From contig JALHOE010000055.1 of the NCBI GenBank assembly GCA_022843175.1, positions 1-42,771 on the forward strand: DNA of 42,771 nucleotides, read 5' to 3'. This DNA is from Deltaproteobacteria bacterium (GTDB lineage: Bacteria > Myxococcota_A > Polyangia > Polyangiales > JADJMO01). The position numbers were made by a program, and so were the translations under genes. A model generated the notes under the pieces. The model saw nothing but the letters and a program-made list of their open reading frames with translations. It searched no databases and was not told the origin of the DNA. This document shows positions 21,301 to 34,493 of this stretch, one piece after another (the stretch's first letter is position 1; each line of letters opens with the position of its first letter).

Positions 21301-22962
21301 TTACTTGTCGTCCGTCGTCAGGGTCACGGCCCCGAGCGACGCGGATGAAACGAGTGCGCGATATTTGGCGAGCGCGCCGCCGACGTGACGGGCGGGCGGC
21401 TCGGCGGGCTTGCGCTCGCTGAGATCGACGGTGTCGAGGCGGCGCGCTTCGACGTCGAGCGTGACGGTGTCGCCGTCGCGGAGCTTGGCGATCGGCCCGC
21501 CGTTGAACGCCTCGGGCGAGACGTGGCCGACCATCATGCCGTGGGTGGCGCCGGAGAAGCGGCCGTCGGTGACCAGCGCCACGTCGTTGCCTAGGCCGGC
21601 GCCCATCAGCGCGGCGGTGACGGAGAGCATCTCGCGCATGCCGGGGCCGCCGCGCGGACCCTCGAAGCGGATGACGATGACGTCGCCCTTCTTGATCTCG
21701 CCGCGCGACACGGCGGCGAACGCGGCCTCTTCGCCGTCGAACACCCGAGCCGGGCCCTCGAACCGCATGCGACCGTGGCCGGCGAGCTTCACGACGCAGC
21801 CCTCGGGGGCGAGCGAGCCGCGGAGGATCGCGAACCCGCCGCGCGCCTTCACCGGCTGCGCCACCGGGAGCAGGACCTTCTGCGGTTTGTCGTCCGCGCT
21901 CGCCGCCTCTTCGGCGAGCGAGCGCAGGCTGACCGTCGGCGAGTCCTGCACGAGCCCCGCGTCGAGCAGCGCGCGCGCGAGGCGACGGGTGCCGCCGGCG
22001 GCGTGCATGTCGACCGCGTTGTAGTGACCGCCGGGCTTGAGATCGGCGAGGGTCGGCGTGCGGGCGGCGATGGCGTCGAACTCGTCGATGGCGAGCGGCA
22101 CCCCGGCCTCGCGGGCGATGGCGAGGAGATGGAGCACGGCGTTCGTGGACCCGGCGGTGGCCGCGACGGCGGCGATCGCGTTCTCGAACGCGGTGCGGGT
22201 CATGATCGAGCGCGGCCGCACGTCGCGCTCGATGAGGTCCATCACCAGGCGCCCGCAGCGCCGCGCCTGGTCGTCCTTCTCGGGGCCGAGCGCGGGCACG
22301 TCGTTGGCGCCCATCGGCGAGATGCCGAGCATCGTGAGCGCGACGGCCATCGTGTTGGCGGTGAACTGGCCGCCGCACGCGCCGGCGCCGGGACACGCCA
22401 CGTTCTCGAGCTCGGTGAGCTCGGCCTCGCTCATTTTCCCGGCCGCGCACGCGCCGACCGCCTCGAACACGTCGAGGATGGTGACGTCGCGGTCGTGGAA
22501 GCGGCCGGGCGCGATCGCGCCGCCGTAGAAGACGAGGCCGGGGACGTTGAGGCGCGCGAGGGCCATCGCAGCGGCGGGGATCGTCTTGTCGCAGCCGGCG
22601 AGCGCGATCACCGCGTCGAAGGAGTGACCCATGGTCGCGAGCTCGATCGAGTCGGCGATGACCTCGCGCGAGACGAGCGAGGCGCGCATGCCGTCGGTGC
22701 CCATCGAGATGCCGTCGCTGACGACGATGCTGTTGAACTCGATCGGCGTGCCGCCGGCCGCGCGCACGCCCTCCTTCACCTTCTCGGCGAGCGCGCGCAG
22801 GTGCGAGTTGCACGGAGTGACCTCGCTCCACGTGTTGGCGATGGCCACCAGCGGCTTGTCGAGATCGGCGTCGGTGAGGCCCGTCGCCTTGAGCATTGCG
22901 CGCGCGGGCGCCCTCGCGGGGCCGCGCTTCATCTGATCACTGTTGAGAGACTTCGAACTCAT
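21301..22962 (-). CDS. ilvD: Dihydroxy-acid dehydratase
   Basis: Iron-sulfur dehydratase giving 2-oxoisovalerate or 2-oxo-3-methylvalerate; 553 residues, usual length. Cluster cysteines: Cys51 in [10 protein letters not shown], Cys124 in [11 protein letters not shown] (with Asp125 and the Lys126 normally carbamylated), and Cys196 in [13 protein letters not shown]. Further family segments are [25 protein letters not shown] and [22 protein letters not shown]. The ATG at 22962 has a GAGG ribosome site that lies directly after the attenuator terminator tail. It is the first structural gene of the BCAA operon. Confidence 0.96.
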
Positions 22963-23455: not shown

Positions 23456-23484
23456 TTGACCGAGCGCGTCATGGGGTTCATCGT
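23456..23484 (+). promoter_or_regulatory. Candidate promoter of the aro leader
   Basis: TTGACC (23456-23461) resembles a -35 element. With a 17-bp spacer the -10 would be CATCGT (23479-23484), which is poor. If used, the start would fall near 23491, just before the internal leader ATG at 23495, again giving an almost leaderless mRNA and a 23-residue peptide. Support is the -35 match and the parallel with the ilv side only. Confidence 0.3.
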
Positions 23485-23566
23485 GGTGCGCGTCATGAAC
23501 TTCGTGGCCCGCACCTCGGCGTACGCGTTTGCGTACTTTTATTTTGCCGATGGGCGGGCGCCTTGA
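23471..23566 (+). CDS. aro leader peptide (Tyr/Phe attenuation)
   Basis: A 31-codon open frame ending 89 bp before the DAHP synthase gene. Codons 18-25 read YAFAYFYF (TAC GCG TTT GCG TAC TTT TAT TTT), six aromatic residues in eight; Phe also occurs at 3 and 11. TTT and TAT are unusual here, where TTC and TAC dominate. The internal ATG at 23495 would give a 23-residue peptide with the same control run. The stop (23564-23566) lies inside the antiterminator 5' strand. No clear Shine-Dalgarno is seen. The aromatic run matches the pathway of the downstream gene, as expected for ribosome-mediated attenuation. Confidence 0.85.
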   Translation: MGFIVVRVMNFVARTSAYAFAYFYFADGRAP

Positions 23567-23606
23567 TCTGAGCTGACAGCGCAGATCGCGAAAGGAAGGC
23601 CCGCCC
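23552..23606 (+). promoter_or_regulatory. Antiterminator of the aro leader
   Basis: GGGCGGGC (23552-23559) pairs with GCCCGCCC (23599-23606), CTT (23562-23564) with AAG (23596-23598), and GATCTG (23565-23570) with CAGATC (23582-23587). Together these are 17 bp in three nested helices with small bulges. The 3' strand covers the 5' arm of the terminator, so the structures exclude each other. The 5' strand begins six bases after the last aromatic codon and spans the leader stop. This is the same geometry as in the ilv leader. Confidence 0.78.
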
Positions 23607-23635
23607 CCGAGAGGGAGCGGGCCTTCGAGCTTTTT
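23596..23635 (+). terminator. Attenuator terminator of the DAHP synthase gene
   Basis: AAGGCCCGC (23596-23604) pairs with GCGGGCCTT (23617-23625). After one C-A mismatch, CCC (23606-23608) pairs with GGG (23613-23615), closed by a GAGA (GNRA-type) tetraloop. The tail CGAGCTTTTT ends at 23635. The GGAGG ribosome site of the structural gene (23642-23646) follows directly. Confidence 0.9.
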
Positions 23636-23655
23636 GAGCCCGGAGGAACCCCGCC

Positions 23656-25044: not shown

Positions 25045-26226
25045 TCACGAATCGGCCCTTCCCTCGGGGATCGCCTGGGCGGCGTTCAACAGGAGGTTGA
25101 GGACGACCTGGGCGATCCGTCCCTCGCTCGCGACGACGGCGGGGACCGCGGCGAGGTCCTGCACCACGCGCGCACGGTGCTTGAGGCGGTGGCTGGCCGT
25201 GCCCATCGCGATGCCGATCGCGCGGTGCACGTCGGTGGTCTGGCGCGCGTCCAGCTCGGGCCGCGCGAACACGCTGAGATCGCTCACGATGCGCGCGACC
25301 CGCTGCGCGCCCTCCGTCGCGCTCTCCGCGTGCTCGCCGACGCGCGTGTAGTCGCCATGGAGCGCCGCCGCGCGGATCGCCTCGAGGTGCAAGAGCACGT
25401 ACGTCAGGGGGTTGTTGATCTCGTGGGCGACGCCCGCGGCGAGGGTGCCGAGCGAGGTGAGCCGCTCGGCGTGCGCGAGCTGCTGCTCGACCCGACGCTG
25501 CTCGGTGACGTCGCGCGCCAGGACGACGATCGCCGGCTCGCCCTCGAACTCGACGTTCATCGCGCCGACCGACGCGGCGAAGTCGCTGCCGTCGGCGCGC
25601 CGCAGGCGCTCCTCGGTGAACGGCACCACCGCGTGGCCTGCCTGCAGCGCACGGATACGCTCGACGATGCGCGGTCGCTCCTCGGGGTGGGCCAGCTCGA
25701 GGACCGGTGTGCCGATGCCCGCCTGCGCATCGGGCCAACCGAGCGAACGGGCGCACTCGCTGTTCGCGTACACGATCTTCCCCTGGCGGTGGACGAGGAT
25801 CGCGAACGGCGAGCGCTCGATCAGCGCGCGGAAGCTGGCCTCCGAGCGGCGCAGGCGCTCCTCGGCGGCCAGCCGCTCGGTCGCGTCCCTCGCGATGCCG
25901 AGGAGCCTCCCGTCGCCGAGCAGCTTCGCGCTCACCTCGAGGGTCCGTGGAGTGTCCGCGGATGTACGGAACGTGCGGGTCGTGATCGTCGTCCGACCGG
26001 CGAGCAAGTCGTCGCGCCGCAGCGGCTCGCGGCGAAGATCGTCGGGGTCCCAGAGCAGCTCGGCGATCCGCCGGCCGGCGAGGTCGTCGAACGCGCGCCC
26101 GAGCAACGCGCACGCCGCGGCGTTCACCCACTCGATGCGGAACGACGAGTCCGTGATGAAGACGCCGTCCGACGCGCCCTCGACGATCGCTCGGAAGGTC
26201 TCTGCGCTCGGGGCGCTGTCCACCAT
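25045..26226 (-). CDS. PAS-PAS histidine kinase lacking most of its ATPase domain
   Basis: A soluble sensor kinase of 393 residues from the ATG at 26226 (an upstream TTG is unlikely). Two PAS domains (about 7-118 and 127-245) are followed by a HisKA helix pair with phosphoacceptor His268 in GTLAAGVAHEINNPLTYVLLH. The ATPase domain begins normally through the N-box (QVVLNLLLNAAQAIPEG), then hits a TGA within a few residues. The D-box (DxGxGI), F-box and G-box are all missing, so it should not bind ATP or autophosphorylate. It may be a pseudogene, or survive as a PAS-HisKA phosphotransfer or dimer partner. An apparent C-terminal remnant follows the stop. Confidence 0.75.
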   Translation of the reverse strand: MVDSAPSAETFRAIVEGASDGVFITDSSFRIEWVNAAACALLGRAFDDLAGRRIAELLWDPDDLRREPLRRDDLLAGRTTITTRTFRTSADTPRTLEVSAKLLGDGRLLGIARDATERLAAEERLRRSEASFRALIERSPFAILVHRQGKIVYANSECARSLGWPDAQAGIGTPVLELAHPEERPRIVERIRALQAGHAVVPFTEERLRRADGSDFAASVGAMNVEFEGEPAIVVLARDVTEQRRVEQQLAHAERLTSLGTLAAGVAHEINNPLTYVLLHLEAIRAAALHGDYTRVGEHAESATEGAQRVARIVSDLSVFARPELDARQTTDVHRAIGIAMGTASHRLKHRARVVQDLAAVPAVVASEGRIAQVVLNLLLNAAQAIPEGRADS

Positions 26227-26276
26227 CGGCCACGAGTCTCGCGCAACACCGCCCGATCGCAAGGCCCCTCTGGCGC

Positions 26277-26297
26277 AGGATCTGCGCAATAGATCCT
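26277..26297. repeat. Perfect 7-bp inverted repeat between divergent genes
   Basis: AGGATCT (26277-26283) and AGATCCT (26291-26297) around GCGCAAT, in the 129-bp gap between the histidine kinase and the DUF4139 gene. It could be a regulator site for either gene or a small hairpin. No other copy was noticed in the window. Confidence 0.4.
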
Positions 26298-31483: not shown

Positions 31484-32638
31484 CTAGCGCGACTCGAACG
31501 CGGCGCGCGCGATCGACGCGTCGTCGAACGCGACCACGGCCGCCCCGACGGTCTGGGTGCGTTCGTGGCCCTTGCCCGCGATCAAGAGGACGTCCTCGGG
31601 CGCGGCGTCGCGCACCGCGCGTTCGATGGCGCGCGCGCGATCGAGCTCGACGTCGACCGCCACGTGCCCGCGGATACCGGCGCGGATGGCGGCGGCGATC
31701 GCGGCCGGATCCTCGCTGCGGGCGTTGTCGGTCGTGAGGGTGACGCGGTCGGCGAGGGACGCGGCCTCGCCCATCGGCGCGCGCTTGTCCCGGTCCCGAT
31801 CTCCGCCCGCGCCGAAGACCACGTGGAGACGGCCGGTGCAGAGCGCGCGCGCGGCCGCGAGCGTGCGCGAGAGCGCGTCGGGCGAGTGGGCGTAGTCGAC
31901 CACCACGAAGGGACGCGCGGAGACGACCTGGAACCGACCGGGCGGCGGCGCGGCCGCCGCGAGCGCCTCCGCGGCGTCCTCGGGGGGAACGCCCGCGGCG
32001 ATGGCGGCGCCGAGCGCGGCGAGCGCGTTCTCCGCGAAGACCTCGCCGATCGCACGCACCCTGAGCACCGCGGGCACGCCGGGGAGCGTGGAGGCGACAT
32101 CGACGCGTGTTCCCTCCCACGAGAGCGCGACGCGCGTCGCGCGGAGATCGGCGGCGGCCTCGCCGCGCGAGGGCACCGAATAGCGGAGCACGCGGACCCC
32201 GGCGGGGATCACCTCTTCGAGGAGCGCGCTCGACGGATCGCCCGAGTTCATGACCGCCGCGCCGCCGGCCGGCAGCTGCATGAACAGCTGCGCCTTGCTC
32301 GCGAGGTAGTGCTCGGGGCTCCCGTGCGCGTCGAGGTGATCGTGGGTGAGGTTGGTGAAGACGCCGATCTCGGCCGGCCACTTGCGCGCGTAGCCGTGGG
32401 CCAGCGCCTCGCTCGTGTACTCGACCGCCGCGAACAGCCCGCCGCGCTCCTCGCAGCGCCGCATCAGCCGCAGGAACCCCTCGTGGCTCGCCGGGAGATC
32501 GGTGACCCTCTCGTCGTCGAGGTGAAACCCGACCGTGGTCACGCGCGCGACCGGTCGCGCCAGCCGCGCGAGGGCGGCCGCGACCAGGGTGGTGGTGGTC
32601 GTCTTGCCGTTGGTGCCGGTGACGCCGACGGTGCGCAC
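31484..32638 (-). CDS. Short MurE-like Mur ligase
   Basis: An ATP-dependent amide ligase of the Mur family, 384 residues, closest in motifs to MurE. The ATP loop GTNGKTTT (8-15) is at the very start, so the N-terminal UDP-sugar binding domain (about 95 residues in MurE) is missing. Further motifs: FTNLTHDHLDAHGS, the carbamylated-lysine region SKAQLF (Lys115), FAENALAALGAA, VVDYAHSPDAL, FGAGGDRDRDKR and AGKGHE. The meso-diaminopimelate motif DNPR of MurE reads DNAR (304-307). The start is a GTG and no upstream in-frame start adds the missing domain. It is probably a Mur-type ligase with a non-standard substrate, not the main MurE; the dcw cluster is not here. Confidence 0.8.
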   Translation of the reverse strand: MRTVGVTGTNGKTTTTTLVAAALARLARPVARVTTVGFHLDDERVTDLPASHEGFLRLMRRCEERGGLFAAVEYTSEALAHGYARKWPAEIGVFTNLTHDHLDAHGSPEHYLASKAQLFMQLPAGGAAVMNSGDPSSALLEEVIPAGVRVLRYSVPSRGEAAADLRATRVALSWEGTRVDVASTLPGVPAVLRVRAIGEVFAENALAALGAAIAAGVPPEDAAEALAAAAPPPGRFQVVSARPFVVVDYAHSPDALSRTLAAARALCTGRLHVVFGAGGDRDRDKRAPMGEAASLADRVTLTTDNARSEDPAAIAAAIRAGIRGHVAVDVELDRARAIERAVRDAAPEDVLLIAGKGHERTQTVGAAVVAFDDASIARAAFESR

Positions 32639-32648
32639 GACCGAGACT

Positions 32649-33272
32649 CTACAGGCTCGGCAACAGATCGCGCAGCGGGGTGGTGCAGCCGCCCTCCGCG
32701 GTGACCAGCTCCTTGAGGCGCGTGCGACCGGCGTCGTTGAGGCCTCCCGCGACCAACAGGCACTTCGCCTTCAGATCGCCGGTGCCCGCGTCGGCCGGGC
32801 AAATGGCCGCGAGCGTGGTGCAGTAGGCGTCGGCCGTGGCGTCGGGGCAGCCGCCGCCGAGCGCGCTGTACGCGCAGTCCCACACCGGATCGGTGGTGGT
32901 GCCCTCGCAGGTCGGGAGCTTGACCACGCAATCGATGGCGAGCTTGGCCGAGCGCGGCTTGAAGTAGGTGGGGATCGCCGTACACGCAGGCAGCGTGTCG
33001 AGCGTGCACCCGCCGGGCGTGGTGCCGCTGCAGGGCGGGACGGTGATGCCCTCGTCGGTGCAGAGCGCGTCGGCCGCGTCGGCCGCGTCGCTCGTGCCGT
33101 CGACGCTGCCGCTGTCGGAGGGGGCGCTGTCGACCGCGGCGCCGGTGTCGGTGCTCTCGGTGTCGCTCTCGAGGGGCGCCGCGTCGGTCTTGCCGCGGTT
33201 GTCGATGATGGTGCAGGCGTTGGCCGACAGCGCGGCGGCGAGGAGAAGGAAGCGGCTGCGATCGACGTTCAT
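32649..33272 (-). CDS. Cys-containing lipoprotein (207 aa)
   Basis: Unknown family. Signal peptide with lipobox SANAC (Cys20), then a disordered Ser/Thr/Asp/Ala linker (about 30-68), followed by a compact domain with many cysteines (CTDEG, PPCSG, GGCTL, PACT, DCVV, PTCEG, DCAY, GGCPD, YCTT, ICPA), probably disulfide-linked outside the cytoplasm. It ends in a helical segment (GGLNDAGRTRLKELV) and TTPLRDLLPSL. It is divergent from pheA with 96 bp between; 10 bp before the MurE-like gene. Confidence 0.7.
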   Translation of the reverse strand: MNVDRSRFLLLAAALSANACTIIDNRGKTDAAPLESDTESTDTGAAVDSAPSDSGSVDGTSDAADAADALCTDEGITVPPCSGTTPGGCTLDTLPACTAIPTYFKPRSAKLAIDCVVKLPTCEGTTTDPVWDCAYSALGGGCPDATADAYCTTLAAICPADAGTGDLKAKCLLVAGGLNDAGRTRLKELVTAEGGCTTPLRDLLPSL

Positions 33273-33368
33273 AGGCGAATACCTACCAGGGTTGGTGCTG
33301 CAGTGTCGTTCGACGTTCGGGGAGCCCAGCCATTCAATCCGCGCCCGAGGAGGCTAGAGTGTCGCCCC

Positions 33369-34493
33369 ATGCAGCCCCCGGATCTCGCCGCGCTCCGCGA
33401 TCGCATCGAAGAGGTCGACCGTCAGATCATCAAGCTGATCGCCGAGCGACTGAAGATCGTCGAGGGCGTCATCGAGGCGAAGCTCGCCAACGCCAGCCCG
33501 TTCCGCGATCGGGAGCGAGAGGCGAGCCTGATCGGCCGCCTCCGCGCGATGGCGGCCGAGGCGGGCATCGATCCCCACGAGATCGAGCGAATGTATCGAG
33601 TCGTTATGGACATGTCCGTCGCCCACCAGGAGCAGACGGTGCGCGATCGAAAGGACGTGCCGCTGCGCGTGAGCTACCAGGGCGTCGAGGGCAGCTACAG
33701 CCACCTCGCGGCGCAGCGAAACTACGGGGGCCGCCCGGGCGGCGCGCTGCTCACCGGTCACGAGACGTTCCGCGAGGCCGCCGACGCGGTGATCGCCGGC
33801 GCGGCGGACCTCGCGCTGCTCCCGATCGAGGACACCACTGCCGGCAGCATCAACGAGACGTACGACCTGCTGGCGCGCGGGCCGCTCCACATCACCGGCG
33901 AGGTCGTGTCGGCGACCGAGCACTGTCTGCTCGCGCAGCCGGGCGTGGCGCTCGACGAGCTGCGGGTGGTGCTCGCCCATCCCCGGGCCCTCGCGCAGTG
34001 CCACGAGTTCTTCGCGCGGCGGCCGCACCTCACCACGCGGCACGAGCTCGACCCGGCGGGGAGCGCGCGGCGGGTCGCGACGGCGGGCGATCGCACGCTC
34101 GGCGCGATCGCGAGCAGCGCCGCGGCCAAGACCCACGGGCTCGCGATCGTGGCGCACGGGATCCAAACGAGCTCGGGGAACGCGACGCGGTTCGTCGAGA
34201 TCGCGCGAAGGCCGGCGCCGGTCGCCGAGGGCGTCTCGGCGAAGACCTCGCTGGTGCTCTCGCTCGCCGACCGGCCCGGCGCGCTCGGCGAGATCCTGAT
34301 GCGGTTCGCCGCCCGCGGCCTGTCGCTGACGAAGATCGAGTCCCGGCCGATCCCCGAGGCACCGTTCACCTACCGCTTCTACATCGACGTGCTCGGCCAC
34401 GCGGCGAGCGCGCCGTTCGTCGCCGCGCTCGACGACGTCCGCCCCCTCACCAGCGAGCTCCGCGTCCTCGGGACCTACGCGTCAGCGAGCTGA
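33369..34493 (+). CDS. pheA: Chorismate mutase-prephenate dehydratase (P-protein)
   Basis: Bifunctional phenylalanine enzyme, 374 residues. AroQ chorismate mutase at 1-88 (LAALRDRIEEVDRQIIKLIAER, then ASPFRDREREASLIGRL). Prephenate dehydratase at about 93-278 (VSYQGVEGSYSHLAAQ, LLPIEDTTAGSINETYDLL, and the TRFVEI signature). ACT domain at about 285-370 with the Phe-binding GAL and ESRP elements, so feedback by phenylalanine is likely. An AGGAGG sits 15 bp before the ATG, rather far. I found no leader peptide or terminator upstream, unlike the DAHP synthase gene. The 3' end overlaps the convergent hydrolase by 12 bp. Confidence 0.95.
   Translation: MQPPDLAALRDRIEEVDRQIIKLIAERLKIVEGVIEAKLANASPFRDREREASLIGRLRAMAAEAGIDPHEIERMYRVVMDMSVAHQEQTVRDRKDVPLRVSYQGVEGSYSHLAAQRNYGGRPGGALLTGHETFREAADAVIAGAADLALLPIEDTTAGSINETYDLLARGPLHITGEVVSATEHCLLAQPGVALDELRVVLAHPRALAQCHEFFARRPHLTTRHELDPAGSARRVATAGDRTLGAIASSAAAKTHGLAIVAHGIQTSSGNATRFVEIARRPAPVAEGVSAKTSLVLSLADRPGALGEILMRFAARGLSLTKIESRPIPEAPFTYRFYIDVLGHAASAPFVAALDDVRPLTSELRVLGTYASAS

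Follow-up and report, generated by a model that had tools for sequence, protein, structure and literature searches.

What controls the DAHP synthase-chorismate mutase gene in this stretch of DNA (the window, 42,771 nucleotides, analysed as a whole), and what is the role of the short reading frame, dense in tyrosine and phenylalanine codons, that stands just upstream of it? The structural gene joins DAHP synthase to chorismate mutase and thus matches the pathway of the control amino acids, and we are highly confident that it is controlled by a ribosome-mediated transcription attenuator, as the initial annotation had proposed. The coordinates of the elements involved are collected in Table 1.

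Table 1. Elements of the proposed attenuator and of the structural gene, in window coordinates.
Feature	Position	Strand	Detail or basis
Putative -35 element TTGACC	23456..23461	+	by consensus only
Longer alternative leader ORF, 31 codons	23471..23566	+	MGFIVVRVMNFVARTSAYAFAYFYFADGRAP; ATG 23471; stop 23564-23566
Putative weak -10 element CATCGT	23479..23484	+	3/6 consensus matches
Leader peptide ORF, favoured start, 23 codons	23495..23566	+	MNFVARTSAYAFAYFYFADGRAP; ATG 23495
Control codons TAC GCG TTT GCG TAC TTT TAT TTT (YAFAYFYF)	23522..23545	+	Y18..F25 in 31-codon numbering
Antiterminator 5' arm GGGCGGGC	23552..23559	+	folding
Inner antiterminator stem GATCTG/CAGATC, flanked by CCTT/AAGG	23565..23587	+	23565-23570 with 23582-23587
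Terminator hairpin GAAGGCCCGCCCCCGAGAGGGAGCGGGCCTTC, GAGA loop	23595..23626	+	folding
Antiterminator 3' arm GCCCGCCC	23599..23606	+	inside terminator 5' arm
T5 tract	23631..23635	+	4 nt 3' of stem
Shine-Dalgarno GGAGGAA of structural gene	23642..23648	+	sequence
DAHP synthase (type I) with C-terminal chorismate mutase, 428 aa	23656..24942	+	DAHP_synth_1 PF00793 3.1e-73; CM_2 PF01817 5.5e-15

The leader frame can be read in a longer and a shorter form, both of which contain the complete aromatic run and share the C-terminal end ...SAYAFAYFYFADGRAP (last base 23566; here and below each peptide is given up to its stop codon). No Shine-Dalgarno sequence was seen upstream of either ATG (23471, 23495). 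The putative promoter elements are separated by a 17-nt spacer and lie 10 nt upstream of ATG 23495, and we infer a transcription start near 23491-23495, although promoter prediction at a stricter threshold found none in the leader region. In the orthologue from a sister genus (locus L003 of genome G003; the two proteins are 54% identical along almost their whole length) the hexamer TATCCT stands 9 nt before the leader ATG. The lack of a Shine-Dalgarno sequence and these two short distances together favour the 23-codon leader, so that translation probably starts at 23495 and the transcript is probably leaderless or nearly so, while the 31-codon form is disfavoured because its start would precede that of transcription. 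All three Phe codons of the control run are TTT; the five neighbouring genes use 2 TTT to 46 TTC. Such rare codons at control positions are what sensitive attenuation would favour, the relation of rare control codons to sensitivity being the subject of a theoretical study (PMC1183508). The control codons also form a perfect 6-bp hairpin (GTACGC GTTT GCGTAC), followed by TTTTATTTT (23521-23545), which is a terminator- or pause-like element inside the leader ORF.

Six bases after the last control codon (23546-23551) the antiterminator begins, in which the segment 23552-23587 pairs with 23592-23606 in stems of 8, 3 or 4, and 6 bp. Its minimum free energy is -32.1 kcal/mol (z -3.66), a value equalled by none of 200 shuffled sequences, and the region as a whole also stands out against shuffles (z -3.44). 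The antiterminator and the terminator exclude each other, as the 3' arm of the former lies within the 5' arm of the latter. The initial annotation had described the frame in its two lengths, the six-base spacing, an antiterminator of 8+3+6 bp, an exclusive terminator with a GAGA loop and T5, and the agreement of the control amino acids with the pathway of the gene. All of these are recovered here; what it had not mentioned is the tetranucleotide GAGC, which separates the terminator stem from the T tract. This offset could mean a weak terminator, or a transcript end that in fact lies elsewhere. In G003 the offset has the identical length (GTGC, then TTTT), so the feature is common to both sequences as if conserved.

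How would the position of a ribosome decide between these structures? We folded the leader with the ribosome footprint removed, codon by codon. With the A site at codons 9-24 of 31 the antiterminator forms with a probability of at least 0.87, at codon 25, the last Phe codon of the run, the probability is 0.06, and beyond it is zero. In G003 the corresponding values are 0.84 at codon 21, 0.50 at codon 22 and 0.00 at codon 23, so that in the folding of both leaders the switch point coincides with the end of the control run. A ribosome awaiting Tyr- or Phe-tRNA thus leaves the antiterminator free, and one at the stop codon covers it. In equilibrium folding the terminator wins in every ribosome state, and antitermination must therefore be kinetic, dependent on the order of synthesis, presumably as in the classical attenuators.

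We propose the following sequence of events. RNA polymerase would begin near the start site given above and a ribosome would translate the short leader. A shortage of charged tRNA-Phe or tRNA-Tyr would make the ribosome stall within YAFAYFYF, leaving 23552-23587 free to pair with its partner before the 3' arm of the terminator is made, and the polymerase would read through into the structural gene. With an ample supply of both Phe and Tyr, translation would proceed to the stop codon, where the ribosome would cover the 5' arm of the antiterminator, the terminator hairpin would form, and transcription would end near 23631-23636. The outcome would be end-product control by Phe and Tyr, both made from prephenate, of a DAHP synthase isozyme of the Phe/Tyr branch, and either of the two amino acids may dominate the response.

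Further evidence for this attenuator comes from the sister genus. The G003 leader, MDRKPLLAASARRAVFFAFYYFPCEGVGPI, differs from that of the window as a peptide but has an aromatic run, FFAFYYF, at the same place. Its antiterminator arms differ in sequence and, in this comparison of two sequences, are shifted in register, and yet they form the same two exclusive structures (z -3.30 for the antiterminator and -4.82 for the terminator region). The initial annotation had set comparison with relatives in advance as the test of its reading, to be abandoned if the Tyr/Phe run or the stems were not conserved or if the short frame had an unrelated coding role. The run and both stems are kept in G003 despite the changed peptide and arms, and no other coding role for the frame was found, which supports a Tyr/Phe attenuator. 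The comparison covers two close orthologues among the family genomes examined, the gene being present in a single close relative, and it is absent from G001, the only other genome examined from the window's own genus. Among all loci surveyed these were also the only two DAHP synthase-chorismate mutase genes of this type, and both have F/Y leaders.

The same comparison bears on the possibility that the hairpins are a protein- or metabolite-responsive switch, akin to a riboswitch or a T-box, to which the leader peptide is incidental. In its favour, the inner GATC stem and the TGA are partly conserved between the window and G003. The control run, though, is kept while both the peptide and the RNA sequence change, and the geometry agrees with masking by a ribosome. 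Rfam gave no match at the gathering threshold anywhere in the window, and in the leader, searched up to an E-value of 10, only sub-threshold matches were obtained, with neither Phe_leader nor Trp_leader among them. We consider a switch of this kind very improbable.

Could the arrangement be accidental, with a terminator that merely closes some upstream transcript standing next to a frame that is aromatic-rich by chance? In favour of this, the genome is GC-rich (0.69-0.71), hairpins are common in it, and the T tract is offset by 4 nt. The null sample, taken from the genome of the window, comprised 442,771 bases, or 885,542 strand-bases counting both strands; just one frame in it had at least six F/Y among eight residues, and this was the window leader. 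Scanning the same sample (~886 kb of strand) for an aromatic run in a short ORF combined with a terminator within 160 nt of the stop codon again returned a single match, at the window site. On the upstream side the closest gene found is ilvD, which is encoded on the opposite strand, and hence no + strand gene is seen there that such a terminator could serve. Together with the shuffling result for the antiterminator, and with the same arrangement in a different sequence in the sister genus, which in effect already refutes chance, this makes coincidence an even fainter prospect than an unrelated switch. Equally faint is the prospect that the hairpin within the control run (GTACGCGTTTGCGTAC with TTTTATTTT), of which 23521-23536 is flagged as terminator-like by prediction, halts or pauses the polymerase on untranslated leaders independently of stalling at aromatic codons, as it is a by-product of the palindromic TAC GCG / GCG TAC codons, is not seen in G003 or in the Planctomycete leaders read (see below), and the ribosome site of the structural gene lies outside the switch.

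The genomic context is consistent with a dedicated role of the attenuated gene. In the window it appears to stand alone, since its downstream neighbour, a PAS histidine kinase gene (25045-26289), is on the - strand. In G003 a prephenate dehydratase-ACT gene begins within it, and that operon therefore feeds directly into Phe. A class II DAHP synthase is present in all five family genomes, and the leader and terminator scan found no aromatic leader belonging to the class II DAHP synthase, trpE or prephenate dehydratase genes of the family. As every one of these genomes thus also has a DAHP synthase lacking an aromatic leader, the attenuated one seems to be an additional isozyme for the Phe/Tyr branch. 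About 9 kb downstream in the window there is a pheA-type chorismate mutase-prephenate dehydratase-ACT gene (32538-34490, + strand), with no aromatic leader detected upstream.

Among known systems, the pheL-pheA attenuator of enterobacteria combines a leader with Phe codons and exclusive antiterminator and terminator hairpins to control a chorismate mutase activity (Rfam Phe_leader), and in these three respects the window resembles it. The target of pheL is a chorismate mutase-prephenate dehydratase and only Phe is sensed, in contrast to the window, which has no Rfam match, although the G003 operon does include a prephenate dehydratase. The trpL-trpE attenuator shares the mechanism, but with Trp codons only and another end product. 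Closer in target is aroR-aroF of Corynebacterium glutamicum, an experimentally studied system in which a Phe-Tyr-Phe leader peptide upstream of a DAHP synthase gene controls transcription through ribosome stalling and responds to Phe, not Tyr (Neshat et al., 2014, as described in a review, PMC11802643; PMC4046766). Likened by that description, the two differ in phylum and in extent, with three aromatic residues named for aroR and seven of the 23 leader codons coding for F or Y in the window, where the gene is moreover fused to chorismate mutase. Similarity or common descent of the two leader sequences is not to be expected, given how fast leaders evolve. In Acholeplasma, a uORF with one or more Phe codons, followed by a terminator, is predicted to act as an attenuator upstream of aroF (motif uORFC-13-1; PMC8632094); the motif is confined to Acholeplasma and environmental sequences and has a U-run, not a long mixed F/Y run. 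Attenuation of E. coli aroF has long been hypothesised (cited in PMC8632094 and PMC2659441). A 2010 survey placed leader-peptide systems in Proteobacteria, Actinobacteria and, newly, Firmicutes only (PMC2965389), and we found no paper in the open-access literature on leaders of this sort in myxobacteria or Planctomycetes. The initial annotation had called leader control of DAHP synthases rare and had known of none in this lineage. The second statement stands as far as that literature goes, while the first has to be softened in view of aroR-aroF, Acholeplasma aroF and the candidates in several further phyla described next. The mechanism is ordinary ribosome-mediated attenuation; the instance and the lineage, as far as can be seen, are new. 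They add the first committed step of the shikimate pathway to the genes under leader-peptide control, in a large-genome lineage, probably the Polyangiales of the Myxococcota, in which amino-acid regulation is little described.

Do other DAHP synthase genes have such leaders? In a small comparison sample of loci fetched by similarity to the DAHP synthase of the window, four Planctomycete loci (L032, L033, L036 and L040) have leaders with terminators, e.g. MNARHATYWFWFYFTPMGRGAGGRI and MTSAHNTYRFWFYFTPMGRGAGGDI, with a common Y..FWF..TP..RGAG-like pattern and a stand-alone DAHP synthase. Three of them have a -10 candidate, CAGAAT, 6-7 nt upstream of the ATG, which suggests that these leader transcripts are leaderless. 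Taken alone, the L040 antiterminator is no better than shuffles (z -1.06); L040 and L036 have one outer antiterminator pair in opposite orientation (A-U vs U-A). A Dehalococcoidia MAG (L044) has the leader MKVYDLKEYFIYYRRESVGVVIV, with the F/Y run YFIYY and a terminator, and its operon (L044 2700-6250) continues from DAHP synthase to a tyrosyl/tryptophanyl-type tRNA synthetase and prephenate dehydratase. In a Clostridiales MAG, YFSFFSWGYYY is followed by a hairpin with T6. No chorismate mutase, prephenate dehydratase or trp neighbours were detected at the Planctomycete and Clostridiales DAHP synthases. In the window's own phylum, WWW leaders with terminators precede DAHP synthase in G128 and G310, where the operon is DAHP synthase-trpE-trpG-trpD, and a WWW frame precedes it in G182, with trpE and trpG, probably as a further case although no terminator passed the filter (L173-L175 are the loci of G128, G182 and G310). 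These three are candidate tryptophan attenuators at DAHP synthase, of the trpL-trpE kind; about a dozen other trp-linked DAHP synthases in the set have no convincing leader.

Leader codons therefore vary with the operon in this sample: leaders with only F/Y codons accompany chorismate mutase or prephenate dehydratase, those with only W accompany trpEGD, and W, F and Y occur together where DAHP synthase stands alone. On balance we favour the view, with reservations, that ribosome-mediated attenuators have been gained repeatedly, in at least four phyla, by DAHP synthase genes of this one type, that what becomes of chorismate in the operon determines the codons (fusion or linkage to chorismate mutase or prephenate dehydratase, trpEGD, or neither), and that many of the leaders are on leaderless transcripts. 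If true, this would give a testable rule, by which the codon content of a leader reports the end products that the operon feeds, and such leaders could be used to assign physiological roles to DAHP synthase isozymes.

Attenuation in the window does not appear to be limited to aromatic amino acids. The divergent ilvD gene (21301-22962, - strand) has its own leader, ...GGLFVFALVLLVIIIPAIRGAPV (23199-22970, - strand), with a terminator-like hairpin from 23009 to 22980, so that the two attenuators stand back to back. The ilvD orthologue of G003 (72% identity) is likewise preceded by a leader, ...GALLVVVVVLIALIALGCGPPF, and a terminator with T6. The branched-chain attenuator at ilvD thus seems conserved, and its occurrence in both genomes suggests use of the attenuation mechanism in this family.
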